A stretch of DNA of 23,920 nucleotides from a virus: positions 1 through 23,920 of IMG/VR virus record IMGVR_UViG_3300044491_002001; one strand, written 5' to 3'. The translations under genes and the position numbers were made by a program. The notes beneath the pieces are model-generated. The model was not told where the DNA came from and did not search any database. It saw only the letters and a program-made list of their open reading frames with translations. Within the stretch, counting starts at the first letter, position 1. Every line of letters starts with the position of its first letter. This document shows, in pieces, positions 3,615 to 23,444 of this stretch.

Positions 3615-3892
3615 TATTTTTCAGTACCTTTATATACCTTATCAAGCGCATCACTGAACTGTTCAATCTTCTCTAGTCTATTTGGCCAGTAAATATATCC
3701 CTTCTCAGGATTAGCCTTTAGATTATTTAGAAGTGGTTGAACCATATTATAAAGCGCGTTCAATCTATCCTCAACAGCTGATACATTATCAGATGCTTCA
3801 GAGACCTTAGCAGTTGCCTGCTGTACAGCCTCCAGCTCATCCTCATCCATCGCGCTGAAGCCAAAATCAAAATTAAATTTATCGTTAGCCAA
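3614..3892 (-). CDS. Conserved-looking small protein encoded directly after gp43
   Basis: A 92-residue acidic, mostly helical protein. It begins with NDKFNFDFGFSAMDEDELEA, continues with a predicted coiled-coil-like stretch (AVQQATAKVSEASDNVSAVEDRLNAL) and ends with a motif containing EKGYIYWPNRLEKIEQF. I recall similar proteins encoded beside gp43 in marine T4-like phages, but their function is not established. The start appears to be TTG at 3892, inside the last codons of gp43, with GAGG about 9 bases upstream; no suitable ATG exists near the N-terminus. Tight coupling to the polymerase gene hints at a role with the replisome, which is inference only. Confidence 0.75.
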   Translation of the reverse strand: MANDKFNFDFGFSAMDEDELEAVQQATAKVSEASDNVSAVEDRLNALYNMVQPLLNNLKANPEKGYIYWPNRLEKIEQFSDALDKVYKGTEK

Positions 3893-6377
3893 AGAAAGCC
3901 TCCAGGGTCATTTGTTTCTCTACATTCCATCCAATTGAATCAATCACAGTACGCATAGGTTCAAGGAACGCTTTATCGAACTGAGTATCATAATCAATAT
4001 ACTTATCAAGCTCTAACTGCCTCGGTAGAGTGCTTGCAATAGCAATCACATTCTCCCTACTTGGATTAGGTACTCTGAGATAGCAGAACTTAACTTTATC
4101 ACCTTCTTGTATAGGTTGGAATCTATCTAGTTTATGCTCTTTAAGTAGGTGATTAAACATCAAAGCACCACGAACGTGAATCGGAGTACCTTTCTTGTAA
4201 ATCATCGAACTATCCATATATTTAGTAAGACCTTTGCAACCTCTTGGAAATGCAACATCTTCGAATGGCATAGTTCTAAACTCTTCTCTAAAGTCGTCGA
4301 TAAACTTAATAAGCTCATTCTCACCATGGTTCATAATAATTGTAAGAGCTTTCTTAATATTCTCACGACACGATGAAGGCGTACTTGATCTTACAGCTTC
4401 GATACCCATAATCTTAAGCTTAGGTTCTTCGTATCGCACACCTTCAGAGTCAAACACGTTCATGATATAACGTTTCTTAGCAGTCCAAATAGCTTTATTG
4501 CCAATATTCTCACGCTTCATTACCATTTTATTTTCCATGGCATTGACGTATTCGGATAACTTATCATAGGACTTTTCGATTACAGGTTCAATAATCTTTT
4601 CACAAGATGTATCTAGAAAGTCAACAATAGTTTTATCATCAGCACCATCGGGATACACTTTCTTAACCAACTTCTCAAGCGTAATATATACAGAGTCAGT
4701 ATCGATAGCAACAACAAAGTCCTCATTGGTTGTACCAAGAGTCTTATTAAGCCATTCGTTAAGATGTTTCTCAATCCATCGAATAGACAACTGGCCACCT
4801 AGAGTAATTGACTCGGCATACTTAAGATCAAACCACCTGAAGTATTGATTGCCTAACGCACCATAAGCTGAGTTGAGCTGAATCTTTTTAGCTAGCTGCA
4901 TATTATGACATTGAGATATCTTCTTAGTCAACTCATTAGAAGGATTCTTCTCATACTGACGTTTATAGTCAAGCATTCGATTCTTCCATACAACCCGGTC
5001 ATCATACATCGATTGCATAAGAGTAGGTAAGAAGCCTTTATAGTCTTTATCATATAAGTCACCAGTTGCAGCAACAGTAACGTTTCGTTCTACTAACTGA
5101 GGCTTATAATCATTCCAAGCACCATCAATAATACTCTGAATAGAAGGCGCAGCACCAATCTTACCTTTCCAGGTCTCAGGTGAGATATTATATTGCATAA
5201 TCAAGTGAGGGTATAGCGAGTTAAGGTCGAAGCTAACAACCCATTTACTCATTCCAGTCTTAGGATCTTTAACGTAAGCACCTTCAGCTTGACGTTCTTT
5301 CTCAACCATATTGAACTGAGGTACTACGACCTTCTTTTGCATTAGGTGATTGTGAATAATCAGATCCCACATACGAACAGAGGTAAAAGTATCTTGATAG
5401 TTTACTTTAGCATCGTATGCAATCGCATATACTTGCTCGAGCAACTTAAGCTTATCGTCAAGGCGAGCAACTAGCTCAACGTCTTGAATATTGTAGTCAA
5501 TAAACTTTTCCCAGTCATGCTTATATAAGTCGAATAGACTATCATGCTCAGAGTAATCTAACTTCTTCTCACCTAACTCAATATGAGCAATATTGTTTAG
5601 ACTATAACCATCTCTCATTACAAATGTAAACTTACGATACATTTGCAAATAGTCTAGAGTAGATACACCTACAATATCATAGAACAGGCTTTCACGACCA
5701 GCAATAACAACTCGACGTTCTTTTACTTTCTCGAAAGGGGATAGTTTTCTTGCGAACTCTTCACCGCACACTCTAGTAATACGGTTATAGATATAGGGAA
5801 TATCGAAACCTTCAACGTTCCATCCAGTAATGACATCAGGATCAACTGCCCTATATGCATCCATGAACTTCATCAGAAGGTTAGCTTCGTTTGTACACTT
5901 GATATAGTGCACGTTATCTTGCTTAGGTGTATATGCTTGACAGCCTAGAACAACGAACTTATCTCTAAACTTAAAAGCAATAGCAGTGATCTCTTTATCG
6001 GCTCTCTCAATATCAGGAAAGCCTTCATCAGCTGCAACCTCGATATCGACATTCATTACTCTGATCTGTTCGACATCATATTCAACGTCATGATACTTAT
6101 CATTCAGATAGGTATAAGCATACATCGGTAGACCATGCACTTGTGCATTACCGATATCTTTTCTACGTTTGATGAAGTTTTGAGCTTCGAAAGGGGTGTC
6201 GAAGTCCATACGTTTAACGGGCTTACCATCTAGAGTATGATACTCAGTTGGTCCGTTATAAGGTGAGACAAAAAGATAAGGACGGCAAGGTTCCATATAA
6301 CTGAAACGCTCGCCGTTTTCATACCCGCGATGGAGTATCTTATCACCTAAAAGCTGTACATTAGTATAAAATTTCAT
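3885..6377 (-). CDS. 43: Family B DNA polymerase gp43
   Basis: Replicative DNA polymerase with proofreading, 830 residues (T4 gp43 is about 898). The exonuclease motifs are all present: VDIE (D111, E113), GWNVEGFD (D192) and YNIQD (Y295-D299). The polymerase motifs are also present: A as DLNSLYP (384-390), B as KIQLNSAYG (498-506) and C as DTDS (559-562). The C-terminus ends in MTLEAFFG, consistent with a clamp-binding tail. The ATG at 6377 has no Shine-Dalgarno. A promoter at 6384-6412 would place the first transcribed base at or next to this ATG, so the message may be leaderless. It overlaps the next gene by 8 bases. Confidence 0.97.
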   Translation of the reverse strand: MKFYTNVQLLGDKILHRGYENGERFSYMEPCRPYLFVSPYNGPTEYHTLDGKPVKRMDFDTPFEAQNFIKRRKDIGNAQVHGLPMYAYTYLNDKYHDVEYDVEQIRVMNVDIEVAADEGFPDIERADKEITAIAFKFRDKFVVLGCQAYTPKQDNVHYIKCTNEANLLMKFMDAYRAVDPDVITGWNVEGFDIPYIYNRITRVCGEEFARKLSPFEKVKERRVVIAGRESLFYDIVGVSTLDYLQMYRKFTFVMRDGYSLNNIAHIELGEKKLDYSEHDSLFDLYKHDWEKFIDYNIQDVELVARLDDKLKLLEQVYAIAYDAKVNYQDTFTSVRMWDLIIHNHLMQKKVVVPQFNMVEKERQAEGAYVKDPKTGMSKWVVSFDLNSLYPHLIMQYNISPETWKGKIGAAPSIQSIIDGAWNDYKPQLVERNVTVAATGDLYDKDYKGFLPTLMQSMYDDRVVWKNRMLDYKRQYEKNPSNELTKKISQCHNMQLAKKIQLNSAYGALGNQYFRWFDLKYAESITLGGQLSIRWIEKHLNEWLNKTLGTTNEDFVVAIDTDSVYITLEKLVKKVYPDGADDKTIVDFLDTSCEKIIEPVIEKSYDKLSEYVNAMENKMVMKRENIGNKAIWTAKKRYIMNVFDSEGVRYEEPKLKIMGIEAVRSSTPSSCRENIKKALTIIMNHGENELIKFIDDFREEFRTMPFEDVAFPRGCKGLTKYMDSSMIYKKGTPIHVRGALMFNHLLKEHKLDRFQPIQEGDKVKFCYLRVPNPSRENVIAIASTLPRQLELDKYIDYDTQFDKAFLEPMRTVIDSIGWNVEKQMTLEAFFG

Positions 6378-6383
6378 ATTATC

Positions 6384-6412
6384 ATTATATAATTAAACAC
6401 GGTAAAGGGCAA
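6384..6412 (-). promoter_or_regulatory. Sigma70-like promoter immediately before gp43
   Basis: The minus strand carries TTGCCC (6407-6412), exactly 17 bases, then TATAAT (6384-6389). With the usual 6-7 bases from the -10 box to the first transcribed base, transcription would begin at about 6377-6378, which is the A of the gp43 start codon. It lies in the 40-base gap between the 98-residue gene and gp43. The -35 box matches TTGACA less well than the uvsX one. Confidence 0.6.
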
Positions 6413-6417
6413 GCCTT

Positions 6418-6714
6418 TTATTCAAAATCTAAAGCAACTCTGCCCTTAAGATATTCTTTATGTTCGTCCGTTAGACCAGTTGCTTCTATGCCTGCATAGA
6501 TTGCGTCTTGATCAGCAGCTACACATGCAGCCTTAAACTCATCAGTAACTGTATCAACACACTCAACAAAGGCGATAACATGTTGCGTTACAAGTGGGAT
6601 AGTCTCGAAGCCATCATATGCTTCAACTGCAGCTTGAGCAGCTGCGATTACTTCATCAGTTGTTTCAGGGAAGTAATTTCTAATTTCTTTTGCAAAATAA
6701 ATCTCAATTGCCAT
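6418..6714 (-). CDS. Small acidic protein under a late promoter, unknown function
   Basis: A 98-residue acidic protein, largely helical and Ala/Glu/Asp rich, with no family I recognise. It starts MAIEIYFAKEIRNYFPET and ends GRVALDFE. It has no signal peptide and no membrane segment. ATG 6714 is preceded by a strong AAGGAG. Upstream lie a perfect 8-bp hairpin (6734-6755) and an exact T4 late-promoter octamer (6760-6767), so this small gene probably has its own abundant late transcript, unlike the early replication genes around it. A virion-associated or late-stage role is a reasonable guess but is not shown by the sequence. Confidence 0.75.
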   Translation of the reverse strand: MAIEIYFAKEIRNYFPETTDEVIAAAQAAVEAYDGFETIPLVTQHVIAFVECVDTVTDEFKAACVAADQDAIYAGIEATGLTDEHKEYLKGRVALDFE

Positions 6715-6890: not shown

Positions 6891-7298
6891 TTAATCAATT
6901 GTGATTGTACGAGGCTGCTTCTCTTCTGGGATTTCTAACTTCAATTTAACTGCAAGAATACCGTCCTGAAATGAAGCTCCAGCTACTTGGACATACTCAG
7001 ATAAACGAAACGAGCGTCTAAAATTGCGAGTGGAAATACCACGATGGATAACCTCTCGACCTGAGCTCGTATGCTCACCTGTGATTCTTAGGGACCGTTC
7101 TTTCTGCTCAACTTTGATATCTTCACGTTTGAAACCAGCAACCGCAACTTCGATTAGATACTCAGTCTCACTCTCTTTAACGATATTATGAGGTGGGTAT
7201 GAATCGTTTGCATGCCGTGTTGTAGTTTCCATCTCTTCTAAAAGACGCTCGAAACCAATAAACGCTGAACGGGGGAATAGTGTTTGTACTTTCGTCAT
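6891..7298 (-). CDS. Small heat-shock protein (Hsp20, alpha-crystallin domain)
   Basis: A 135-residue holdase chaperone that binds unfolding proteins without ATP. The alpha-crystallin domain covers about residues 38-125: YLIEVAVAGFKREDIKVEQ, SLRITGEH, RRSFRLSEYVQVAGASF and the signature DGILAVKLKLEIPE. It ends in a short tail with PRTITID, an I-x-I-like oligomerisation motif. ATG 7298 is served by AGGAG about 10 bases upstream; an ATG 7 bases earlier is out of frame. Hsp20 genes are common in marine T4-like phages. An 85-base leader upstream holds a hairpin (7335-7358) and possible -10 boxes. Confidence 0.93.
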   Translation of the reverse strand: MTKVQTLFPRSAFIGFERLLEEMETTTRHANDSYPPHNIVKESETEYLIEVAVAGFKREDIKVEQKERSLRITGEHTSSGREVIHRGISTRNFRRSFRLSEYVQVAGASFQDGILAVKLKLEIPEEKQPRTITID

Positions 7299-7334
7299 GT
7301 CGCATTATCTCCTATGATTTTAGCAAGACATTAT

Positions 7335-7358
7335 GTAAGCCCGACCATCGGCGCTTAC
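7335..7358 (-). promoter_or_regulatory. Hairpin in the hsp20 leader
   Basis: GTAAGC pairs with GCTTAC (6 bp) around an inner CCGA/TCGG stem (4 bp) separated by one unpaired G, with a TGG loop. It lies 37 bases before the hsp20 start and would fall in the 5' leader of a transcript from the candidate promoter at 7366-7394. It does not cover the Shine-Dalgarno, so it is not a typical RNA thermometer; transcript protection is an alternative. Confidence 0.4.
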
Positions 7359-7365
7359 CATATTA

Positions 7366-7394
7366 TATATAAGACCTTCTTTGTTAGAAGGCAA
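7366..7394 (-). promoter_or_regulatory. Possible sigma70-like promoter for hsp20
   Basis: TTGCCT (7389-7394), 17 bases, then TATATA (7366-7371) lie on the minus strand around the end of the radical SAM gene. A better -10 box, TATAAT at 7362-7367, overlaps it but has a poor 21-base spacing to the same -35. The -35 lies in the last codons of the upstream gene. Plausible but weaker than the uvsX and gp43 promoters. Confidence 0.35.
7375..7391 (-). terminator. Short hairpin at the end of the radical SAM gene (possible weak terminator)
   Basis: CCTTCT and AGAAGG make a 6-bp stem with loop AACAA, spanning the stop codon of the radical SAM gene. What follows in the reading direction is TCTTATATAT rather than a clean T-run, so termination would be weak. 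It overlaps the candidate hsp20 promoter. Confidence 0.22.
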
Positions 7395-9042
7395 GTTTTT
7401 TATCAATATATTGTTTAATAAAATTGATATGGTTATTATAGTGGCTTTCACCGAATGGTGCAACGTCTTTAAACGATTTAACCATATCAGCTGGCGTAAG
7501 ATCATTAGCCGTTGTATATCTGTGATAGTAAAAGATATGAGGCGCTACTTTAGTATGATCAACCATTGAGTGACATTCGTTAAAGACTTCAGCAGCTTGG
7601 AAGATATTCATTGAGTCTGTTTTCCATTTTACAATCGACGTTGTGTTAAAAACAGAATTAAGTTGCCGTCTTACCTCATCATCAATCTTAAGGTCTTGCC
7701 ACTTCTGTTTTGCTTCAGCGTGATCAATCTCAGTAAATATGCCAGATTGTTCCCAGGTACGCTCAAATTCAGATGGATTGGACATAAAGGCTGTATCAGC
7801 AGCTCTTGACATCATAAGCGGATAGTAGTTGTAAGACTGATTAGGAAAATTTGTTATCAGCCATTTGAATTGCTCTAAAAATGATTCAGGTGTTTCAGTT
7901 GGCAGTCCAATAATTTGACTATATGTTGCTCTATATTTACCTAATGTCTTATTAAAGTAGTCCTTAACATCAAATAGTGACTGCTTAATTCTATCTGGTG
8001 CCATACCTTTACCAATGGACTTAGCTGCGCTATGAGTAAATGACTCGATTCCATAGAAGTGAGACCACAAGCCCATCTTAGCGATATGTTCCCAATCCTC
8101 TGGTCTAGCAGCAATCAAGTCTCCTCTCAGGAAACCAAACAACTCTAGCTCAAAGTCTAGTGATTGTACAGCATTACCATAACCTATTAACTTCTCAGTT
8201 CTATCATTGATTGTTTCATCGCCAACAGTATATGCCGCTACACCCCATCGCTCATAATTCTCAGTAACCTCTTCTTTGAAGCCATCGAGGCATCTAGTAT
8301 AATCACCCTTTACTCCTAGTACAGAAAAAGAGCAGAACTTACATTTAAACTTACATCCACGGGCCAGCTCAACCGTCAAGATTTCATCAGGTTGTATAAA
8401 GTCTCTAACTTCATATCTTGTGATTAGATTTTTTTCTGGAAAGGCTGGGTGATACGTATTACACTCAACAACTTTATAGATGCGTTTCTTATAATTGTAT
8501 TCTTTAATTACTACATTGTTTGGTTTACCTTGAAGGTACTGCAGCAATTGCACCATACCTTTCTCACCAAACCCAGTACAGAAATAGTCAACAGGATTAT
8601 ATGCAGCGCTGGCCATCAAATTCATACTGCCAGCAATAATAGGTATCCAAGGGTATGTCTTTTTGAACCAAGCTAGTTTCTCGTTCTGCTGTATCTTAAG
8701 CCGTGAGCTTGTCATAGCAAATAGGGTGCTAATCCCTAGGAACTTTGTCTTTCTACTAACCCTGAGTTTAATAAACTGCTGAAAATCTTCAAGCGGCCAG
8801 GCCTGCCAGAAATCAATTACTTCAACATCCCATCCATGATCTCTTAATTCGCTCGCAATCCTATGCGCGCCAGGCGCACGTTTAATAGAAACCCACTCTG
8901 TTGATAAAGCTTTAGAGTGGGTTGTCTGTATATTGCTGCTGTGCTGGATTCTGGAATCAGATGTGTCTTGTCTCTCAACCATGCCACCTACAATGATGCC
9001 ATGACCTTGATAAGAAGCCTTATCCGTAGCTATTATCTGCAA
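7384..9042 (-). CDS. Radical SAM protein with N-terminal B12-binding-like domain
   Basis: A 552-residue protein. Residues about 55-170 look like a Rossmann-type cobalamin-binding domain (RIASELRDHGWDVEVIDF, LGISTLF, WIPIIAGSMN), but the DxHxxG cobalamin-ligand motif is not evident. The radical SAM cluster motif CKFKCKFC follows at C230, C234 and C237, with further core segments such as AYTVGDETIND and SQIIGLPTETPESF. It therefore likely binds a 4Fe-4S cluster and S-adenosylmethionine. The start is TTG at 9042, with AGGAA overlapping the stop of regA; no ATG is available nearby. I recall proteins of this layout in marine T4-like phages, with the substrate unknown. Confidence 0.85.
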   Translation of the reverse strand: MQIIATDKASYQGHGIIVGGMVERQDTSDSRIQHSSNIQTTHSKALSTEWVSIKRAPGAHRIASELRDHGWDVEVIDFWQAWPLEDFQQFIKLRVSRKTKFLGISTLFAMTSSRLKIQQNEKLAWFKKTYPWIPIIAGSMNLMASAAYNPVDYFCTGFGEKGMVQLLQYLQGKPNNVVIKEYNYKKRIYKVVECNTYHPAFPEKNLITRYEVRDFIQPDEILTVELARGCKFKCKFCSFSVLGVKGDYTRCLDGFKEEVTENYERWGVAAYTVGDETINDRTEKLIGYGNAVQSLDFELELFGFLRGDLIAARPEDWEHIAKMGLWSHFYGIESFTHSAAKSIGKGMAPDRIKQSLFDVKDYFNKTLGKYRATYSQIIGLPTETPESFLEQFKWLITNFPNQSYNYYPLMMSRAADTAFMSNPSEFERTWEQSGIFTEIDHAEAKQKWQDLKIDDEVRRQLNSVFNTTSIVKWKTDSMNIFQAAEVFNECHSMVDHTKVAPHIFYYHRYTTANDLTPADMVKSFKDVAPFGESHYNNHINFIKQYIDKKLAF

Positions 9043-12357: not shown

Positions 12358-13338
12358 CTATTTCTTACGTTTCATTTGCGATTGATCAGCTGTTGCTGTT
12401 GCACCGATTGCAGCTAGATCTTGTAGACTACCACCGAAGATATAAGATCCCATATGAGACAATTGCATCCACGGACATAACCAAATGCTCATACCCATAT
12501 TACGTACCCATTGACAGAACATATAGTCCTCAGATAGATAACGATTAGAGTATGTCTTCTTATTAAGGCCTGTTCGCTTATCAGCAAGGAACTCAATAAC
12601 TTCATCTTTAGTAGGATTAGGATTGCTTTCATACAAAGCAGTAATCTCAGGTACAAGGTTCTGAGACTTATCATCAATCAATGCATCAAAGTAAGCCATG
12701 ATCTCTCGCGAGCCGTCAAACTCAGCAGTACGTACATGATCAGGCTTATACATCATTTGAGGATAAGTTTCATTAAATCGCTCAAACGTCTCTCTACGAA
12801 TCATCATAAATCCAGTACCGCTTTCAAGCACCTCTTGAGGGCGATCAAGCTTAATACTATTTTTACCATCAGCAGGATTGAATACATAGTCACCAACAAA
12901 CTTCTCTAGTACACTAGGATCTTCATCTGCTACACCTGCATCAACTGCCTGCTTAATTTTCTCCCACGAGATACACTTCTTAGGATATGGGCCACACAAT
13001 ACATCAAACGCCTTTCCGTCATTGATATCAGGATGGCCATCAATCATACCTAGCAATGCCAATACATCCTGAGCACTGAACCCGATATCAGAATCAATAA
13101 ACATCAAGTGAGTACAATCACTGCGCATAAACTCATCAGCACAATAATTACGAGCTCGAGTAATAAGCGATTCATTGAACAGATAATAAAACCTGAGAGG
13201 AATATTATGAGCTCTAAACAATGCAGATAGGTCATTAGTAGATTTAGTAAACATACCTGCACATTGACCGCCGTACATAGGCGCAGCGATCATTAGTTTC
13301 TTTTCGCGAATCTGATCTAGATTAACAGTTAGTTCCAT
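12358..13338 (-). CDS. GT-A-fold glycosyltransferase-like protein
   Basis: A 326-residue protein with a GT-A glycosyltransferase layout: strand KLMIAAPMYGGQ near the N-terminus, SLITRARNYCADEF, then HLMFIDSDIGF with a DxD-type metal motif at 82-84, and an acceptor-side segment YLSEDYMFCQWVRN followed by LSHMGSYIFGG. It has no signal peptide or membrane span, so it is probably cytosolic. The start overlaps the stop of the upstream gene (TAATG). Being next to the DNA-modification block it could glycosylate DNA, but surface sugars or proteins are equally possible and no sequence feature settles it. Confidence 0.75.
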   Translation of the reverse strand: MELTVNLDQIREKKLMIAAPMYGGQCAGMFTKSTNDLSALFRAHNIPLRFYYLFNESLITRARNYCADEFMRSDCTHLMFIDSDIGFSAQDVLALLGMIDGHPDINDGKAFDVLCGPYPKKCISWEKIKQAVDAGVADEDPSVLEKFVGDYVFNPADGKNSIKLDRPQEVLESGTGFMMIRRETFERFNETYPQMMYKPDHVRTAEFDGSREIMAYFDALIDDKSQNLVPEITALYESNPNPTKDEVIEFLADKRTGLNKKTYSNRYLSEDYMFCQWVRNMGMSIWLCPWMQLSHMGSYIFGGSLQDLAAIGATATADQSQMKRKK

Positions 13339-13787
13339 TATGCACTCTCAATTTTCTGCATGAATAATTCACATACTGGTTGACCAGGTTGCAGAAAAAG
13401 TTCACCACCGCCAACAGTTAGATGACCAGATACTAGGCCTTTATAGCCGGGCTCAAGGATAAGTGATTCAACAGTAACACCGCCATTAAATAGGTCGGCA
13501 GTAGGTTTTAGAAATGCAACATGACCGTCAGGTACATTAATATAAACATCACTAGAGAATTCATATACACCAGGATACATATGCCAAATCTCTCGATTCT
13601 TACTAGGGTCACCTGGATCGATCATCGTAGGGATTTCATAAGTTTCACGCTTCATGTAATTATCTTCTGTACTTACCAGAGGATTACCTTGAAAGCCACG
13701 GCACTTGTCAGCCGATACTTCTACTGAGATAGCTTTATAACCATCATCATCTACACCATTTACATATGGCTTAGGATTAACAAACAT
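13338..13787 (-). CDS. dCTP deaminase/dUTPase-fold protein, divergent second copy
   Basis: A 149-residue protein with the beta-rich pattern of the dUTPase/dCTP deaminase superfamily: PGVYEFSSDVYINVPDGHVAF, then ILEPGYKGLVSGHL and a C-terminal LQPGQPVCELF. The superfamily's RSS nucleotide-binding triplet is replaced by KPT, and the Asp of the dUTPase D-x-G-Y-x-G element by Glu. The catalytic Glu of dCTP deaminases is also not evident. It may therefore be inactive or altered in specificity. ATG 13787 has AGGAGTG overlapping the upstream stop; longer readings are unlikely. It lies directly behind a better preserved copy. Confidence 0.65.
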   Translation of the reverse strand: MFVNPKPYVNGVDDDGYKAISVEVSADKCRGFQGNPLVSTEDNYMKRETYEIPTMIDPGDPSKNREIWHMYPGVYEFSSDVYINVPDGHVAFLKPTADLFNGGVTVESLILEPGYKGLVSGHLTVGGGELFLQPGQPVCELFMQKIESA

Positions 13788-13788
13788 T

Positions 13789-14286
13789 TTATTCACTCCT
13801 ATATTTTGTGTCATGTTGTTTATTGATACCGTAATCACCGTCATACTGTGCTAGTGATTCAGATTTATACAGTAGGAATTGACCTACTCTTGTATTGCGT
13901 TGCAGGATAAAATCACCACATGTTACATGAAGTGCACCGGCCATTACACCATGATACCCTGAATCGTATAACCCAGAAGTAATATATACTCCATTACGGT
14001 TCAAAGTAGAGCGTGTAATAACAAACCCAGCTTCGTCATTGCCCATATGAACAATATTCTTCATTAGAATTTCGTATGCTCCTGGCTTTAAAGTCCAGTA
14101 GCCGTCAGCATCAGGAAACAGTTCAACTGAACCTCTATGCACCTTCTTCTCTTCATTAAGAACAAAGCCGACATTATTAATTTCGTACACTTTATCGACA
14201 CGTAGATCAACCGCATTAGGCTGTACGTCTCCAGGCTGTACTTCGGTAAGGGTAGATTGCGTCTCATCAGACATAATATGAATCAT
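13789..14286 (-). CDS. dCTP deaminase/dUTPase-fold protein, better preserved copy
   Basis: A 165-residue protein with VQPNAVDLRVDKVYEI near the N-terminus, RSTLNRNGV (R92, S93) matching the RSSLxRxG nucleotide-binding motif, YDSGYHG (D108) matching the dUTPase catalytic Asp element, RVGQFLLY with the conserved Gln at 136, and QYDGDYG at the end, as in dCTP deaminases. It is thus a dCTP deaminase or dUTPase candidate in dNTP metabolism. The deaminase Glu is not seen, favouring dUTPase-type chemistry. ATG 14286 has a weak GGTG upstream; MSDE at 14274 is an alternative start. Confidence 0.72.
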   Translation of the reverse strand: MIHIMSDETQSTLTEVQPGDVQPNAVDLRVDKVYEINNVGFVLNEEKKVHRGSVELFPDADGYWTLKPGAYEILMKNIVHMGNDEAGFVITRSTLNRNGVYITSGLYDSGYHGVMAGALHVTCGDFILQRNTRVGQFLLYKSESLAQYDGDYGINKQHDTKYRSE

Positions 14287-14289
14287 AAT

Positions 14290-14943
14290 TTATACACCAT
14301 TCGCAAAATAATAAGGATTTTCTTTTGTACTAAAGGTTTTAACTTTCACAGGAACATTATTAATAAAGTCAAGCTTAAGTACTGAGTTCGCAGGAGTCCT
14401 GACGCTATCAGTAAATTTAGTACTCGATATATTTAGCTGATCGTCAATGAACATCGGAGATATTTCGTTCCTAAAAAGTAAAATATCTCCCTGCTCATAC
14501 ATCAAGCAACTAAATGTGCCATCTACAAGACTAAGATCCCTGTCTTGTATATACCACCAATGCAGCAATCTCGTATCCCATTTAGCTTTTGTATAAAGAG
14601 CATTTTGCATCATCTTAATACAATCTTCTTTAAGGATACCATTATGCCACATATATGTATCACATACACTCGTGTATGGCCATACGCACCATTCACTAGG
14701 ATGAACTGTATCCATAGACTTAGCTTCAGTAGTCGGAGCTTGAATATGACCAATCCAGTATACACCCATATAGTCTTCGACACCAGAAGCATCAAACTGA
14801 CCTAGACCTCTCTTAATAATCTTAAGGTCTCTTTTAATTGGATCATACACAGAGATAGAATACGAATGAAATCCTCTATACGAGTTTAGTTCCATAAGTT
14901 CGTAAAACACATCTCTACTATACGATCCAAAAATAGCACACAT
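14290..14943 (-). CDS. Class II glutamine amidotransferase, partner of QueC
   Basis: A 217-residue N-terminal-nucleophile glutaminase that should release ammonia from glutamine. The catalytic Cys is residue 2 (MCAIFG). YRGFHSYS at 22-29 corresponds to the YRGYDSAG motif of GlmS-type enzymes, GHIQAPT at 64-70 to GHTRxAT, and WHNGILK at 98-104 to the HNG motif. There is no synthetase domain. The start overlaps the stop of queC (TAATG), so the two are coupled. Fused Gat-QueC proteins are described for phages that make 7-amido-7-deazaguanine DNA; here the parts are separate. Because QueF is also present, I infer that it feeds ammonia to QueC for preQ0 rather than making an amide end product. Confidence 0.82.
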   Translation of the reverse strand: MCAIFGSYSRDVFYELMELNSYRGFHSYSISVYDPIKRDLKIIKRGLGQFDASGVEDYMGVYWIGHIQAPTTEAKSMDTVHPSEWCVWPYTSVCDTYMWHNGILKEDCIKMMQNALYTKAKWDTRLLHWWYIQDRDLSLVDGTFSCLMYEQGDILLFRNEISPMFIDDQLNISSTKFTDSVRTPANSVLKLDFINNVPVKVKTFSTKENPYYFANGV

Positions 14944-15707
14944 TAAGCTTTATACCTCTCAATTAGACTTTCCCAGTCGATATCAGTTTGATATTTGATC
15001 GGGTCTGCAATACCTGCTTTCGCGAAGTTAGCAATACGTTCAGCACAAGTAGGACATGTACCACAGCTTGCTCCCTCATTATTAGGATTATAACATGAAA
15101 GTGTACTTAAAAGCAACTGTTCTTTTCCTAATTCAAGACAAAGTTTAATCTCTTCTTGTTTAGACAGATGACTAAACGGAGCCACAATCGATACTTTATG
15201 AGATCTATTCTGACTAGCTACATCATTAAGACTATCAACAAACCGTTGAGACGTATCCCAGTAACCGTATTCATCATGAACCTGCAGCCCAGTAAATACA
15301 TGAGAAGCATTTTGCACTTCAGCATACGACATAGTAAGCGATAGCAAGATCATATTACGAAACGGTACATACGTTACAGGTTGCGGATCACCAAGCACGT
15401 CCTCGATTGTAGGCATATCAACAGAAGTACCACCGATATTAGCAGACATCGGTTTAGCGATATCACCGAGAATACCAAGATTAAGAATCTTATGCTTGAT
15501 GCGTAATGCATTACATAGTTCAAAAGCCTTCTCTAACTCAACTCTCTGCTTCTGACCATAGTCGTAAGACACTGCAGAGACATTGTCTGCCCCATACTTT
15601 GCTACTAGTAACATAGTCATCACAGACGAGTCTAACCCTCCGGAGAGAACGGCTACAACAGGCTTATTAGTAGTTGGAAGGTTATCTAAAGCTTTACTCA
15701 AATTCAT
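14943..15707 (-). CDS. queC: 7-cyano-7-deazaguanine (preQ0) synthase QueC
   Basis: Converts 7-carboxy-7-deazaguanine (CDG) to preQ0 using ATP and ammonia. The PP-loop SGGLDSS lies at 22-28. The C-terminal zinc site is intact: C205 in LSCYN, then C215, C218 and C221 in CGTCPTC. Further family segments are YDYGQKQRVELEKA and TYVPFRNMILLS. The 254 residues are near normal length. ATG 15707 overlaps the upstream gene by 14 bases, and the downstream glutaminase starts in its stop codon. It is separated from the other que genes by four genes (QueF, a small membrane gene, the TauD-like gene and the 79-residue gene) but on the same strand. Confidence 0.95.
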   Translation of the reverse strand: MNLSKALDNLPTTNKPVVAVLSGGLDSSVMTMLLVAKYGADNVSAVSYDYGQKQRVELEKAFELCNALRIKHKILNLGILGDIAKPMSANIGGTSVDMPTIEDVLGDPQPVTYVPFRNMILLSLTMSYAEVQNASHVFTGLQVHDEYGYWDTSQRFVDSLNDVASQNRSHKVSIVAPFSHLSKQEEIKLCLELGKEQLLLSTLSCYNPNNEGASCGTCPTCAERIANFAKAGIADPIKYQTDIDWESLIERYKA

Positions 15708-16889: not shown

Positions 16890-17047
16890 TAAATCTCCTC
16901 GGCTACTCCTAGCACTTCAGCTGAAAACAATAGTAAAGCTGCGCCCTCGTAGCTACCAACATACAGGTAACCACAAGCAGCGAAGCGTAATAGGCTTTTA
17001 ACAATACTAATATAAAAATGTCGTTTACTTGGATCTTTAGGTTCCAT
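16889..17047 (-). CDS. 52-residue membrane-associated small protein
   Basis: A small gene in the gap between queF and the TauD-like gene. It encodes 52 residues: MEPKDPSKRHFYISIVKSLL, then a hydrophobic stretch RFAACGYLYVGSYEG and ALLLFSAEVLGVAEEI. Both ends are TAATG overlaps with the neighbours, which is strong support for translation. Two short hydrophobic segments suggest membrane association. Similar short proteins ending in AEVLGIxEEL are, as I recall, common in T4-like phages; the function is not known. Confidence 0.72.
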   Translation of the reverse strand: MEPKDPSKRHFYISIVKSLLRFAACGYLYVGSYEGAALLLFSAEVLGVAEEI

Positions 17048-17991
17048 TATTGTCTCTCCGTCTTACGATGAGGAATCGTTTCCTCAACTAAGTAAGGGCA
17101 AATGCGTTCAATAACATCTTCGCTCGTTGCTCTTACAGGGTTAATATCAATACCACCTCGTCGCGTATACAAACAAGCAACTAGGATCTCGGTATCATCA
17201 GATAAAATATCTTTCAAGCGCTTAAAGATACATTCGCAAATCTCTTCATGAAAGTGATTCTCTTTACGCATTGAAACAATATACTGCATAAGCGATTCAG
17301 GAGTAACACAATCTTCACCTTGGATATGAATAAATACATCACCCCAATCCGGCTGATTAGTTACACGACAGTTAGATCGCAGCGCATTACTTGTCACCTG
17401 AAACGGCATAAAGCCAAGCATCGGTGCATGTTCGAGAATAGCTGGATCTTCGTTATAATGATCAAACTTAATTAACTCAACATCAACAATACTCTCCAAG
17501 CGAGCAAAGTGACCTAGCACAGGCGGCGGCGGTAGATCATTATCTGTATTATAATGAAACTTAACACCTACTCGGCAATCAAGCGCTTCACTCAAATCAT
17601 GTGCAATCTTAGTCTCGGCCTTAGCAATAGCTTGACCTAAGTTCTTACCAAACTTATGCATATTGAAAGAGTTAAGATACAGCTTAAGCGATTTCGATTC
17701 AACAATGCAGTCACTATCAGATGGATATACCATCTTAACAACACCACTAACAGGGAAGCCGTTATCTAGGAGGAAGGATACTTCAAAACAGTTCCAGGTA
17801 TCATAACCTACAAAAGGAAGATTATCTTCGTCAATATCATAGATAGTTCTATTCAAGTCACGAGGAACAGGAACAAGCAGACTAGGGTCTACTTTATCAG
17901 GAGTTACATACGGCTTTACAATACTGCCATCGCCTGCTTTACCGAGATGCTCGGATACAATTTCGTTTAGTTTATCTCTATTATCAGTCAT
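17047..17991 (-). CDS. queF: preQ0 reductase QueF (7-cyano-7-deazaguanine to preQ1)
   Basis: NADPH-dependent nitrile reductase that turns preQ0 into preQ1. The 314 residues match the long, two-module (E. coli-like) form. The NADPH-binding QueF motif ESKSLKLYLNSF lies at 98-109, the nucleophile is C208 in LRSNCRVTNQPDW, the adjacent acid is D215, and HFHEE (247-250) and YTRRGGIDINP (276-285) complete the site. Because the ESKSLK motif is intact, this is a true reductase rather than the archaeosine-forming QueF-like amidinotransferase, which lacks it. Start and stop both overlap neighbours (TAATG). Its presence indicates that the base reaching DpdA is preQ1. Confidence 0.95.
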   Translation of the reverse strand: MTDNRDKLNEIVSEHLGKAGDGSIVKPYVTPDKVDPSLLVPVPRDLNRTIYDIDEDNLPFVGYDTWNCFEVSFLLDNGFPVSGVVKMVYPSDSDCIVESKSLKLYLNSFNMHKFGKNLGQAIAKAETKIAHDLSEALDCRVGVKFHYNTDNDLPPPPVLGHFARLESIVDVELIKFDHYNEDPAILEHAPMLGFMPFQVTSNALRSNCRVTNQPDWGDVFIHIQGEDCVTPESLMQYIVSMRKENHFHEEICECIFKRLKDILSDDTEILVACLYTRRGGIDINPVRATSEDVIERICPYLVEETIPHRKTERQ

Positions 17992-18524
17992 TATGGTGCA
18001 CCCACTACTTTCATTACTTGTTCGACTCGCGCTCTTACTGACCCTGTCAATACATGTACAGGTCTATTAATCTCAGAAAGGAGTCCCTCAAAAATCTCTA
18101 CAATGTCATCTCTAAATTGAAGATCTGTAGAGCGTACTCCATCTTCAACAATATTAAACTCAGGACGAATATAAAATACATGATCATATTCATCAATAGT
18201 TTTCTCATAAATGCGTCTAGCTTTCTTTACAGTATCTTGAGTTACATTATGCTTTAGACTTAGATACGTAGTATATACTAGACCGTCAAGCGACGTACGA
18301 TCAGTTAACATATTCTCATTCATAAAAATATTAACAATATGCTTTTGCATAATAAGCAATTGAGTTACATCAGAGCCAGCTTCATTAATATCGAAGCCCA
18401 TCTCTCTAATCTCTCTAGTCACTTCATCACAAATCACATAGTCCTTAAACTTAGGTTCAGATCTCAATGCATTAAGCAAAGTAGTCTTACCTACAGACTG
18501 CGCTCCAGTAATTCCAATTCTCAC
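17991..18524 (-). CDS. NadR-like P-loop kinase/ATPase
   Basis: A 177-residue P-loop protein. Walker A GAQSVGKTT lies at 7-15, a DEVTREIREMGFD segment follows at 34-46, and DRTSLDGLVYT resembles the DRS/lid region of NadR-type nicotinamide riboside kinases and related AAA_28 proteins. BHVFYIRPEF-like strand (actually DHVFYIRPEF) also fits. The start is GTG at 18524, overlapping the stop of the formyltransferase gene (GTGA), with GAGG upstream. It could phosphorylate a nucleoside or a modified base in the pathway, or act in NAD salvage; the sequence does not decide. Confidence 0.78.
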   Translation of the reverse strand: MRIGITGAQSVGKTTLLNALRSEPKFKDYVICDEVTREIREMGFDINEAGSDVTQLLIMQKHIVNIFMNENMLTDRTSLDGLVYTTYLSLKHNVTQDTVKKARRIYEKTIDEYDHVFYIRPEFNIVEDGVRSTDLQFRDDIVEIFEGLLSEINRPVHVLTGSVRARVEQVMKVVGAP

Positions 18525-19024
18525 ACTTTACCTCTTAGTAACATCATCCACATCTTAATTGAGATATCTCTCAACTCTTTAATTAATTTATTCTCGTCTG
18601 TGCCCGGCTCAATATCATGAGATACAAACAATTGAATCTCGCCGCCATCAAGCTCATCAGTAACTTTATGAATTACTACACCAGTAGAAGGCAGTTTGAG
18701 ATCAATAGCTTTACGCTGAGGATGAATACCGACCAGCTCAGGGTACTTGATAATATCACCAGGATGAACATTATACATACTCTCTTTGATACTATCACCA
18801 TTAATTATTCTCAAATAGCCATGGAGGGTAACAATAGCATCATCAGGTAGATTTTTTAGCTCTTCTAGAATCTCTTTATGAGATAGGAGCTCACTTCTGC
18901 AATCAATATCACTATGCACTGTAGTACGAATTTTATCTACTAGTATTCTGTCAGGATACCTTCCAAGTCTTTCACAAACCTCAGCTAACTCGCTACCAGA
19001 GTTAGAAAATAAAGCTACCCACAT
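18521..19024 (-). CDS. dpdN: PurN-fold formyltransferase, probable dPreQ1 formyltransferase (DpdN)
   Basis: A 167-residue member of the formyltransferase family that uses 10-formyl-tetrahydrofolate. It keeps the PurN catalytic triad: N85 and H87 in YNVHPGD, and D123 in VTDELDGGEI, with the same 38-residue N-to-D spacing as E. coli PurN (N106-D144). The N-terminal VALFSNSGSEL corresponds to the substrate-phosphate loop. PurN proper is longer (about 212). It starts two bases after dpdA (GAGGTGAG upstream). DpdN is described in the literature as formylating preQ1 in phage DNA; context with DpdA and QueF makes that the best role. Purine-synthesis PurN is the alternative, but no other pur gene is seen here. 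Confidence 0.78.
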   Translation of the reverse strand: MWVALFSNSGSELAEVCERLGRYPDRILVDKIRTTVHSDIDCRSELLSHKEILEELKNLPDDAIVTLHGYLRIINGDSIKESMYNVHPGDIIKYPELVGIHPQRKAIDLKLPSTGVVIHKVTDELDGGEIQLFVSHDIEPGTDENKLIKELRDISIKMWMMLLRGKV

Positions 19025-19026
19025 AC

Positions 19027-19827
19027 TTACCTCACCTCTATGTTATGCTTGAACATCTTTATATTATAGAAGATATCAGGTTCATTGGCAACTTCTTTAT
19101 CAATCATAGTGAATAATTTAGTAGATGCCTTATCATCGAGTCCGTATATATCATATTGCGGCTGTCGTTCATACTTAATACCAAGCATACCATGCACAAC
19201 AGGATTAGAAGTATCAATAGTATCAATCCATTGCCAGTTCTTATAGTAAGCAAACTCCTGAGGCAACCCTGCACCGAGCAAATGATGAGGCTTTGACTTA
19301 TTGATTGTACCTGCCTCTTCCATCATACCTAACAAATGCTGACGACCTTTCATCCACGAATGATACTTAGACTGCTCATTAGGAAACTCACTCTCATACC
19401 AGCTATAGTCAAATGAGATAGCAATAATATCAGCATGCATGTTCATATATTTGTAACAATGATTGAGCTCATTCCAATCTTTACCTTGCACTACACCAAT
19501 CTTTTTACCAGGTAGATCTTTATACTTCTTAATCCATGCATCAAAGTTCTTAATAGTACCTTCGCAATCTTCTAATACATCAGGTACAATATAAGCAGAA
19601 GGATTGAGTTCTTTAACATACTCGGCAAACTTATCTGCATCAAACGCTGTACCTAGTTCAAATATACTATTATCAAGAATAACATACCGACCACGTGCAA
19701 CAGAGTCCTTAAAAAAGTCATAGTACTCATCACTCTCTTCAAATAAATGAACTAGAGCATAATCATAATCAGTTACATTACGAACTTTATTAATAATGCT
19801 CAGAGGAGCTTCATGCGCTACTCTCAT
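19027..19827 (-). CDS. dpdA: DNA guanine transglycosylase DpdA (7-deazaguanine insertion)
   Basis: TGT-like enzyme that swaps guanine in DNA for a 7-deazaguanine base. The 266 residues are the short phage form. VILDNSIFELG (D52) corresponds to the TGT active-site Asp region, IVPDVLEDCEGT, GVVQGKDWNEL and HLLGAGLPQEF follow, and WIDTIDTSNPV carries the likely nucleophile D205 (D202 nearby). No zinc-binding cysteines are seen. The chosen start is ATG 19827, with GAGGAGA six bases upstream; a TTG 15 bases earlier is less likely. It is flanked by folE and the formyltransferase. Family membership is clear; the subgroup (DpdA2-like) is inferred from size. Confidence 0.9.
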   Translation of the reverse strand: MRVAHEAPLSIINKVRNVTDYDYALVHLFEESDEYYDFFKDSVARGRYVILDNSIFELGTAFDADKFAEYVKELNPSAYIVPDVLEDCEGTIKNFDAWIKKYKDLPGKKIGVVQGKDWNELNHCYKYMNMHADIIAISFDYSWYESEFPNEQSKYHSWMKGRQHLLGMMEEAGTINKSKPHHLLGAGLPQEFAYYKNWQWIDTIDTSNPVVHGMLGIKYERQPQYDIYGLDDKASTKLFTMIDKEVANEPDIFYNIKMFKHNIEVR

Positions 19828-19838
19828 ATTCTTTCTCC

Positions 19839-20528
19839 TCAACCTTTACCGGCCGCAAACTGCTGCTGAAGGCTAATGTTATCGAAGAATTCCTTCTTCA
19901 CGTCAGCATCATTAAACTGGCCACCTAGTACGGTAGTTTGAGTAAGACTGCTATGTGCCATAATGCCTCTGTTGGTACAGCAACCATGCTCTGCTTGAAT
20001 ATATACAGCTACATCTTGAGTATCAGTAGATCGCTTAATCTCTTTCGCGATATCATTACATAACTCTTCTTGAAGAGTTCCTCGACGAGCACACCACTGA
20101 GCAATGCGAGTATACTTAGATAAACCGATTACCTTTTCACCAGGCAGGATACCGATATATGCAACACCAGTTACAGGTTGATGATGATGAGAGCATACAG
20201 ACTTTAGCTCAGACCGTACAACAAGCATGCCACTATAACGATCTTCACTATCATTCGGAAATGCAGTAGCATCAGGCTTCTTATCATAACGACCAGCCAT
20301 CAACTCATTGATATACATCTTAGCTAGTCGTCGACCAGTATTCATTGAGTTAGGATCATCCTCGCGATCAATAAGAAGACTATCTAGTACGCCTTCAAAC
20401 TTTTTAGTTAGTTCGTCAATCAAGAGTTCCTTCTCACCAGGATGAATACATTGACTAATATTATCACCAGCCCAATAACGATAAGCACCTTCTTCTAGAC
20501 GCTGCTTAATTTTTTTACTTACTTCCAT
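19839..20528 (-). CDS. folE: GTP cyclohydrolase I FolE
   Basis: Makes 7,8-dihydroneopterin triphosphate from GTP, the first step of the 7-deazaguanine pathway. The 229 residues hold the zinc site C112, H114 and H115 in VCSHHHQPVTG and C183 in EHGCCTNRGI, with the family segments GLSKYTRIAQWCARR and TQDVAVYIQAEH. The start overlaps the stop of queD (TAATG), and dpdA follows within 12 bases. Host FolE could supply the same product, so a phage copy suggests a high demand for precursor. Confidence 0.96.
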   Translation of the reverse strand: MEVSKKIKQRLEEGAYRYWAGDNISQCIHPGEKELLIDELTKKFEGVLDSLLIDREDDPNSMNTGRRLAKMYINELMAGRYDKKPDATAFPNDSEDRYSGMLVVRSELKSVCSHHHQPVTGVAYIGILPGEKVIGLSKYTRIAQWCARRGTLQEELCNDIAKEIKRSTDTQDVAVYIQAEHGCCTNRGIMAHSSLTQTTVLGGQFNDADVKKEFFDNISLQQQFAAGKG

Positions 20529-20980
20529 TATACATTTCCTTCATAAATAGCAGAGTTCGAACCATGCTCTGCGCATTCTGCTCTAACGCAATAACAACGA
20601 TTATTAGTTGCTTCACGTACTAACTTATCAGCGAAGTTAAAAGCATGCTCAGCAAACTTCTCTGCACCAACACCATCCATAACTACAACTTCAGCAAGAC
20701 CTAACTCTTGCAGTTCCATAAACTTATCCAAATGAGGATCATTTTTATCGATAGCAGTCTTATGATCAAAATGATCTTCTAACCACTTCTTCAAAGGCTT
20801 CAAGCCTCCAAAGTCAACAGCCCAGTTTTTATTATCAAGCTCTTCACAACCAAACGTAAACGTGAATGCTAAGCTATACCCATGCAGTAAATGACAATGT
20901 GAATGATCAGCATTCGGCTGACGAAATACTGCTGATAGTCCGATACTATGATTATAATGCTTTGTTGAATAATATGCCAT
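20528..20980 (-). CDS. queD: 6-carboxy-tetrahydropterin synthase QueD, variant metal site
   Basis: Converts dihydroneopterin triphosphate to 6-carboxy-tetrahydropterin. The 150 residues show the catalytic Cys C29 and HG of HCHLLHGYS, the helper pair D72-H73 in DHFDHKTAI, and the substrate-binding Glu near the C-terminus in AECAEHGSNSAIYEG. The usual zinc ligands are altered: the first His of F-x-A-x-H is Phe in SAVFRQP, and HGH is HGY. I recall the same FRQ...HGY variant in alphaproteobacterial proteins, so it is probably an active subgroup. GGGAGAA precedes ATG 20980. It lies directly between the phosphoribosyltransferase and folE. Confidence 0.88.
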   Translation of the reverse strand: MAYYSTKHYNHSIGLSAVFRQPNADHSHCHLLHGYSLAFTFTFGCEELDNKNWAVDFGGLKPLKKWLEDHFDHKTAIDKNDPHLDKFMELQELGLAEVVVMDGVGAEKFAEHAFNFADKLVREATNNRCYCVRAECAEHGSNSAIYEGNV

Positions 20981-21436: not shown

Positions 21437-21975
21437 AATAACCAACTCACTAATACTCGTCGGCGGCCTTTAGTAACTAGTGCTACTTCATGCAATAATT
21501 CAGCATCATACGTTACTGATTCACCAACATTTAAATTTAAGACGACAGGTATAATACTTGATCCTTGCTCGTCATCCTTTTCAGTTTTTCTAATATATCT
21601 GTTTACATCAAACTCAAACTCATTATTCTTAAAATGAGGTAGATAAACAATCGTCTCACCGCCCTCTAAATCATCCGACTTATCAAGCATTGTAATTACA
21701 GTGCGTTGAGATTGCTCACCTACATCAGAATGACGTCTAGTAAATGAGCCTTTGTAATACTCTAGATAATACATTCTATCCGCATTCATGTTAAAATGGC
21801 TACTTAATTTTTCTCTATAAGTAGAATTAAGTGTGCTTGGGAATGATCGATAGTCAAGGTAAAAGAGATTGTGCAGTCGCTTTATGCGCTCATTTTCACA
21901 TTCATCATATAGTTTATTAAGCTCAACAATCTCTTCATCATTAAAAAGCTTAAGCACTTCATAATTAGACGCCAA
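21433..21975 (-). CDS. Prolyl-4-hydroxylase-like 2OG-Fe(II) oxygenase
   Basis: A protein of about 180 residues with the P4H-type double-stranded beta-helix motifs: MYYLEYYKGSFTRRHSD (iron ligands H82 and D84), TVITMLDKSDDLEGGET, distal H162 in ELLHEVALV, and the 2OG-binding Arg (172/173) in GRRRVLVSWL. The start is uncertain. A TTG at 21975 is preceded by GGGGAA at good spacing and overlaps queE by only 11 bases; a GTG at 22011 would extend it by 12 residues. It lies inside the que block, between queE and the phosphoribosyltransferase, so action on the deazaguanine side chain is possible, though the family usually modifies proteins. Confidence 0.8.
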   Translation of the reverse strand: MASNYEVLKLFNDEEIVELNKLYDECENERIKRLHNLFYLDYRSFPSTLNSTYREKLSSHFNMNADRMYYLEYYKGSFTRRHSDVGEQSQRTVITMLDKSDDLEGGETIVYLPHFKNNEFEFDVNRYIRKTEKDDEQGSSIIPVVLNLNVGESVTYDAELLHEVALVTKGRRRVLVSWLL

Positions 21976-22867
21976 TTTTATTTCCCCATAGATAAGTATG
22001 TACGCGAGCACTTACATTATATCCACGATTGAAAGCTTCAGTCGCAACGTCAGCATCACAAATCTTCTGACCTTCTACTGTAGCACCAGCAGGCATAATC
22101 CATACCGGCCAGTCAATACCATGGAATCGGAAAGCAGCTAGAATACTATCTAGTTCATTCCACGACTCATCCGTACCATTGATTACAAACTTAAGCTGAG
22201 CTTTGTGATGCACCTGACCATATGAAGCAACAACTTCAGGCTTAATAGCACGCTTAGATTCTTCACCAGCTACTGACCATAGTTTAGGGCTGATAGAAAG
22301 GAATAACTCGCCACCCCAGATATCTTTATACTCATTAAAGTATCTAATGAACTCAGGCGTTAGAGGTTGTGTACCATTAGTTTCATAAGTAACAAACTTA
22401 GGTAAGTCTCTCTCTGCCTCAAACGTCTTCATAATCTCTACTGAACACTCTTGCGCATGCTTCATTAAAGGCTCACCGCCAGTAAAGCACATATGCCGCT
22501 CAGTACCATTATAGTTAAATAGCCCTTGAGGGTTCCAGGGCCCGACCATTGCGCTTCTAATATTGCTAGCGATCTCGACAGGGTTACCCTTATGCTGTAA
22601 TGACTTGAACCTCTTAGACCAAGAGTAAGATGAATCGCAACCAAACTCAAATACAGGAAGATCTTCCATCGACTTATATTGAGTAGGATCAATTTCTAAG
22701 TAAGGGAGTTCGTATGTATCAGGTTTAGTTGGTTCTTTTTGACCAAAACCATTGCACTGGAGATTACAAAGAAAGAATCTAAGCCAAGCAGTAGGTACAC
22801 CAGTATAATGACCTTCGCCTTGAATAGAGTTAAAGATTTCGGAATAGTGATAGGTTTTATCTGACAT
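21965..22867 (-). CDS. queE: 7-carboxy-7-deazaguanine synthase QueE with expanded cluster loop
   Basis: Radical SAM enzyme that contracts 6-carboxy-tetrahydropterin to CDG. The 300 residues are longer than typical QueE (about 220). EIFNSIQGEGHYTGVPTAW is the family N-terminal signature, and FTGGEPL (128-134) is the SAM-binding motif. The cluster cysteines are C34 and C38 in LCNLQC, but the third, C77 in GCDSSYSW, comes after 38 residues instead of the usual 2. Thus the CxxxC and C-D-S/T-x-Y parts are both present with an insertion between them. ATG 22867 has AGGAG and is preceded by a 58-base leader with a hairpin. It is the first gene of the modification block. Confidence 0.92.
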   Translation of the reverse strand: MSDKTYHYSEIFNSIQGEGHYTGVPTAWLRFFLCNLQCNGFGQKEPTKPDTYELPYLEIDPTQYKSMEDLPVFEFGCDSSYSWSKRFKSLQHKGNPVEIASNIRSAMVGPWNPQGLFNYNGTERHMCFTGGEPLMKHAQECSVEIMKTFEAERDLPKFVTYETNGTQPLTPEFIRYFNEYKDIWGGELFLSISPKLWSVAGEESKRAIKPEVVASYGQVHHKAQLKFVINGTDESWNELDSILAAFRFHGIDWPVWIMPAGATVEGQKICDADVATEAFNRGYNVSARVHTYLWGNKIGV

Positions 22868-22925: not shown

Positions 22926-23444
22926 TTATTTAGCGCGCGTTTTAAGTGTACGTAGTACCTTCTTCCACTTTTTTTCAAACCGCTCTTTGTGTATTGTATT
23001 TGCACGTTTGTAGTATGTAATGCCATCCAAATGATCCATCTCATGCTGAAATACTCGCGCGGCCATACCGTCAAATTTCTTAGTTACTATATTACCATAA
23101 GGGTCTTGAAAGCGCGCTCTAATAAATCTAGGACGCTTTACTTTAACCGTTAATGTAGGGTAGGACAAGCAAGCCTCGTCCAATGCAATCTCTTCATCAC
23201 CATACATTGTAATCTTAGGATTAAAACATACCATAGGTGGCTCAGAGTACATAACAAATGCTCTTACATTTATACCGAGCTGATTAGCAGCAAGACCGAT
23301 GCCGCCATTATTTTTCATTTCAGTAATAAGAGTATGAGCAAGTTTAACAGAGTCAACACCATGAGGTTCATTGAAGTTGAACTCAGGCACACGATGATAG
23401 AGCATATCATTCTGGTGGCCAAATAAGATACTAACACTGCTCAT
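22926..23444 (-). CDS. def: Peptide deformylase
   Basis: Removes the N-terminal formyl group from new proteins. The 172 residues carry all three family motifs: GIGLAANQLG (48-57), EACLSYP with metal ligand C92, and HEMDHLDG with H134, E135 and H138. Motif II has Ala where most enzymes have Gly (EGCLS). ATG 23444 is preceded by GGAG and lies two bases after the stop of the upstream small gene. Phage deformylases are well known from marine cyanophages and are thought to speed maturation of newly made proteins during infection. Confidence 0.96.
   Translation of the reverse strand: MSSVSILFGHQNDMLYHRVPEFNFNEPHGVDSVKLAHTLITEMKNNGGIGLAANQLGINVRAFVMYSEPPMVCFNPKITMYGDEEIALDEACLSYPTLTVKVKRPRFIRARFQDPYGNIVTKKFDGMAARVFQHEMDHLDGITYYKRANTIHKERFEKKWKKVLRTLKTRAK

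Follow-up and report, generated by a model that had tools for sequence, protein, structure and literature searches.

The window is a stretch of 23,920 nucleotides of viral DNA (positions 1 to 23,920 of IMG/VR record IMGVR_UViG_3300044491_002001). On its minus strand an intact open reading frame at 18521-19024 encodes a single-domain protein of 167 amino acids, which matched the Pfam family Formyl_trans_N (PF00551) with an E-value of 6e-10 and 39.6 bits against a cut-off of 26.1. The ATG of this gene lies 2 nt past the stop codon of the DpdA gene and is immediately preceded by GAGGTGAGG, and its 3' end shares 4 nt with the start of the gene for an AAA_28 kinase. Given this short gap and overlap, the formyltransferase gene very likely belongs to a single operon. 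The position between DpdA and a P-loop kinase, described in an earlier note made from the sequence alone, was hereby borne out, as was its remark that the protein is shorter than PurN (212 amino acids in E. coli). The surface loops of the protein are divergent, and dN/dS values of 0.11-0.22 among its relatives indicate a gene under purifying selection. The features of the locus are collected in Table 1.

Table 1. Genes and catalytic or diagnostic codons at the formyltransferase locus of the window.
Feature	Coordinates	Strand	Evidence
MCAIFGS ORF, class II glutamine amidotransferase-like by eye (phrog_12378)	14290..14943	-	Sequence reading
QueC	14943..15707	-	TIGR00364, 166 bits against a cut-off of 150.3
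QueF, preQ0 nitrile reductase (makes preQ1)	17047..17991	-	phmmer match to Vibrio QueF, E 4e-43
AAA_28 P-loop kinase (phrog_2107)	17991..18524	-	Pfam E 1.7e-19; phrog of the kinase beside DpdA in CP220
PurN-fold formyltransferase, 167 aa, likely DpdN-type, predicted preQ1 N-formyltransferase	18521..19024	-	Pfam PF00551, AlphaFold, fold match
S155 codon, in place of PurN Glu173	18560..18562	-	No Glu in 53/53
D126 codon, predicted true catalytic Asp (PurN D144)	18647..18649	-	Invariant in 53/53
D123 codon, Asp proposed in the earlier note	18656-18658	-	Asp in only 4/53
N85-V86-H87 codons, predicted catalytic Asn and His	18764..18772	-	Alignment to N106/H108, 53/53
E12 codon, in place of PurN Asn13	18989..18991	-	Glu in 53/53
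DpdA, DNA guanine transglycosylase	19027..19842	-	53% identity to annotated immuto DpdA; TGT-fold model
FolE, GTP cyclohydrolase I	19839..20528	-	Pfam E 6e-40
QueD	20528..20980	-	Pfam PTPS E 4e-14
QueE-like radical SAM protein	21965..22867	-	Several QueE models matched at the N terminus, each scoring under its cut-off

The DpdA protein had no sequence match in Pfam or the PDB. Its structural model (pLDDT 90) returned TGT folds for all of the top 50 solved folds, with a Z-score of 17.5 over 233 residues, and D57, D88, Q119, G190 and D210 were invariant in the DpdA alignment; the roles of D57, D88, Q119 and D210 are presumably those generally known for TGT enzymes. Besides the immuto protein, one from Campylobacter phages of the CP220 type was similar, with approximately 45% identity. 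Based on the model, the gene upstream of the formyltransferase is predicted to encode a TGT-type barrel with catalytic Asp residues and is assigned as DpdA. In two related loci (L013 at approximately 7147-7989, and L016) a second DpdA-like gene, which matches phrog_19058, lies between DpdA and the formyltransferase. This second protein has LNCS for LDNS, VHG for VQG and ITSHP for DTSNP, and looks like a catalytically dead partner, comparable to the QTRT1/QTRT2 pair.

The QueF of the window retains the SNCxxTNQPDWG and ESKSxKLY motifs and, with these and its match to Vibrio QueF, should make preQ1. For the QueE-like protein, the QueE models match only the first 30 residues or so, where the third Cys normally found in the cluster motif is absent. 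The MCAIFGS ORF had no match in Pfam or NCBIfam, and its phrog_12378 is of unknown function; it abuts QueC in an arrangement that resembles a split Gat-QueC fusion. Two adjoining ORFs are found at 13338-14286, one of them dCTP deaminase/dUTPase-like (Pfam DCD) and the other without any match. The gene cluster of the formyltransferase also holds a peptide deformylase (22926-23444; motifs GxGLAAxQ, EACLS and HEMDH). Cyanophages are known to carry peptide deformylases, and the gene is probably unrelated to the formyltransferase.

The AlphaFold model of the formyltransferase (pLDDT 94) had PurN 3p9x as the best Foldseek match (E 4e-13) and aligned in VIA-align with PurN 4s1n with a Z-score of 19.6 at 2.2 Å over 162 residues; the best sequence relatives in the PDB were PurN as well. 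The top VIA-align rows all had the Formyl_trans_N fold, which carries no information on the substrate. In E. coli PurN the catalytic triad is N106/H108/D144 (PMC7926923). According to our alignment the DELDGG segment of E. coli PurN begins at position 141, and D144 is thus the Asp of DGG. N85 and H87 of the phage protein align with N106 and H108, D126 aligns with D144, and each of these three residues was invariant in the 53 family members. The earlier note had proposed an intact triad N85/H87/D123 with the exact 38-residue spacing between Asn and Asp of PurN. N85 and H87 stand, and the VTDELDGG segment is present at 121-128 as described, but the third residue is D126: D123 aligns with E. coli D141, and both the alignment and the conservation led us to reject it as the catalytic Asp. 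The spacing had been counted to D123; from N85 to D126 it amounts to 41 residues, because the phage protein has a 3-residue insertion in the KYPELxG segment (KYPELVGIHPQR, compared to KYP---GLHTHR in E. coli PurN). Judged by the alignment, the formyl-transfer triad appears intact as N85/H87/D126, and the corrected Asp is important for any mutant design.

The protein scored 37.4 bits with the PurN equivalog of NCBIfam (TIGR00639; cut-off 150.1) and 22.4 bits with that of Fmt (cut-off 201.5), has no C-terminal OB domain, and was also far under the cut-off of the PurU equivalog. Residues were counted in an alignment of the 53 family members and 19 PurN references. All family members have Glu (E12 here) at the position of Asn13, which is Asn in 18 of the 19 PurN proteins, and none has Glu at the position of Glu173 (S155 here), which is Glu in every PurN reference. 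We take N13 and E173 of PurN to be contacts to the phosphate and the ribose of GAR. The folate-loop Arg90 is conserved in the family (49 Arg and 4 Lys), so 10-formyl-THF is likely used.

Phylogenetically, the family formed one clade on a very long branch, separate from Fmt and ArnA, with an SH-aLRT of 100 in a quick tree and 100/100 in a careful tree. The clade attached outside PurN in the quick tree and inside PurN, with weak support (85/81), in the careful tree, and an AU test on the attachment (p 0.174) does not decide. Placement inside true PurN had been named beforehand as an argument against a role on preQ1; from the trees this objection appears weakened, not removed. The argument that the protein is not a PurN rests on the residues and the gene context.

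A profile scan of viral contigs gave 466 confirmed relatives of the formyltransferase, of which 80 were kept. Gene context was counted after removal of duplicate loci and only for loci with enough upstream or downstream DNA. DpdA adjoined or was near the formyltransferase in 61 of 64 testable loci and QueF was near in 61 of 66, both counts coming from related phages that are not independent. Flavobacterium phage immuto has the order of the window, DpdA, formyltransferase, kinase and QueF, and its formyltransferase is 40% identical to ours. Among the exceptions, DpdA and QueF are both present elsewhere on the contig in L064 and L070, and L071 is a fragment. A 36% identical relative on a cyanobacterial contig binned as Microcoleus (L099) has the same Glu without a DpdA, which shows that this residue signature also occurs outside DpdA systems. 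This divergent formyltransferase adjoins a DegT aminotransferase, in a region (2752-6537) that also encodes a radical SAM protein, a thymidylate kinase-like protein and a phosphoribosyltransferase. The phage locus L100 has the order MazG, DpdA, formyltransferase, and no QueF was found in its MAG. Three loci (L211, L224 and L229) have the formyltransferase beside the kinase and QueF, with DpdA approximately 6 kb away.

When a scan was anchored on DpdA instead, the formyltransferase was absent from 54 loci that had DpdA, kinase and QueF, and all four genes were present in 18 loci; four comparison loci that we added are part of this table. The few formyltransferase loci without QueF end soon after the gene, except for L100, which is one of the added loci. 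CP220 has DpdA, no QueF in the stretch read near it and no formyltransferase in the whole genome; KVP40 and pf16 have QueF in another setting and no formyltransferase in their whole genomes. The formyltransferase gene appears nested within QueF-bearing DpdA modules. Since modules of DpdA, kinase and QueF without it are common, and CP220 is without it, its distribution is that of an optional step following preQ1.

Further variation was observed among these loci. The phrog_2107 kinase (17991-18524 in the window) tracks the type of DpdA and not the formyltransferase, as it occurs in CP220 and in the 54 loci without formyltransferase. The formyltransferases of L072 (4995-5852) and L088 (4998-5966) are fused at the C terminus to a phrog_1485 domain of unknown function, and similarly long ORFs were found in L197, L221 and L233. 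By eye the extension of L072 and L088 is DUF1599-like, which no library confirmed; only phrog_1485 matched. A kinase-less sister clade (L007 at 5521-5784, and its relatives L008-L019) has a DUF3310 protein between the formyltransferase and QueF.

We consider it probable that the gene encodes a 10-formyl-THF:preQ1 N-formyltransferase, and that the DNA of the phage carries the predicted base 7-(formylamino)methyl-7-deazaguanine. In the proposed pathway FolE, QueD, QueE and QueC would make preQ0, which QueF would reduce to preQ1. The formyl group of 10-formyl-THF would be transferred to the exocyclic aminomethyl amine of preQ1 via N85/H87/D126, as in PurN, and DpdA would swap guanine in DNA for the 7-deazaguanine. 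The invariant E12 could recognise the guanine moiety at its N1/N2 edge. Formylation of the preQ1 aminomethyl group, and not of GAR, had also been the suggestion of the earlier note, and it gained support from the PurN score (37.4 against 150.1 bits), from the change of N13 and E173 in 53 of 53 members and from the linkage to DpdA and QueF, as well as from the true QueF neighbour and the TGT-fold DpdA upstream in the window itself.

We infer that preQ1 is the acceptor, and likewise infer the product and whether formylation or insertion comes first. With regard to this order we lean slightly towards the free base as the substrate of formylation, given that the enzyme consists of one compact domain and stays with the kinase and QueF in L211, L224 and L229. 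A possible alternative, to which we give a lower though appreciable probability and which differs from our preferred explanation only in the order of the steps, is that dPreQ1 is formylated after its insertion by DpdA, with the 7-aminomethyl group in the major groove. It would fit with the gene usually abutting DpdA and with the name dPreQ1 formyltransferase, which the enzyme is said to have received in 2023; however, most members are without a DNA-binding extension, the C-terminal phrog_1485 domain occurring only in a few, and the gene remains with QueF where DpdA is distant. Isoelectric points as a hint of DNA binding were uninformative, DpdA itself being equally acidic. The same question of free base versus DNA has been raised for QueF by Hutinet et al. 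(PMC6884629). It is unlikely that the module acts before replication, with base exchange on a deoxyguanosine nucleotide followed by formylation; the phrog_2107 kinase would then phosphorylate the modified nucleotide, which the polymerase would use for full replacement of G. This reading is suggested by the kinase, which accompanies this type of DpdA whether or not a formyltransferase is present, also in CP220 with no QueF near, and by MazG-like or HD hydrolases encoded closely upstream of DpdA in immuto, L100 and CP220. A modified-dGTP route has been proposed earlier for Campylobacter phages (PMC6884629).

Other roles for the enzyme would leave preQ1 aside. The acceptor may be another locally made amine, for example an amino sugar or an aminated nucleotide, as suggested by the L099 relative beside a DegT aminotransferase, a radical SAM protein and a thymidylate kinase, but what the phage loci share is DpdA, the kinase and QueF, not aminotransferases, and we regard this as improbable. 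Much less probable still is a phage PurN that boosts host purine synthesis as an auxiliary metabolic gene. The fold is shared, cyanophage PurN genes exist and the careful tree places the family, with weak support, inside PurN; nevertheless the protein scores 37 bits where the PurN model requires 150, N13 is changed to Glu and E173 is lost in all members, and DpdA and QueF are nearly always near, whereas the cyanophage PurN genes that we found were not beside que genes. The host-purine role was rejected on residues, score and gene context. The least probable explanation, a decayed or non-catalytic homologue retained for binding, would account for the short length and the divergent surface loops, but it is at odds with a triad invariant in 53 of 53 members and with the low dN/dS.

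Formyl capping of preQ1 has already been predicted for other phages; a further member comes from the window, and the present analysis corrects the active site and strengthens the comparative evidence. If our preferred explanation is true, a PurN-like enzyme has been taken over by phages to block the free amine group on a modified base in DNA, and the formyl cap would remove the positive charge of the base and could alter recognition by restriction enzymes. Since residues have changed throughout the family and the gene is present in some natural loci and missing from others, the explanation lends itself to a clean test by genetics and biochemistry.

Compared to known systems, the phage protein resembles PurN (TIGR00639) in its fold (Z 19.6 over 162 residues), the N/H/D triad and the folate-loop Arg, but it is without the C-terminal extension, has the 3-residue PELxG insertion, has Glu for N13 and has lost E173. 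PvdF, the hydroxyornithine transformylase, is likewise PurN-like, has the same triad and was recruited to act on a different amine (PMC7926923). Unlike the phage protein, it belongs to a siderophore pathway, has two domains and has no link to phages or DpdA. Fmt and the sugar N-formyltransferases ArnA, VioF and WlaRD share the Formyl_trans_N domain and the triad, whereas the phage protein is without their C-terminal OB or sugar-binding domain. With regard to DpdN, Cui et al. reportedly detected a formylated base in phage DNA in 2023 and predicted DpdN, a dPreQ1 formyltransferase, as its enzyme; immuto was presumably among the phages of that study. DpdN is reportedly a phage Formyl_trans_N protein that occurs with DpdA and preQ1 synthesis, as does ours, and the same chemistry was proposed for it, with 2'-deoxy-7-(formylamino)methyl-7-deazaguanine as the product. 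Compared by these features, the formyltransferase of the window is likely DpdN: it combines Formyl_trans_N with an intact Asn-His-Asp triad, and DpdA, FolE, QueD, a QueE-like protein, QueC and QueF are all encoded in the same window.
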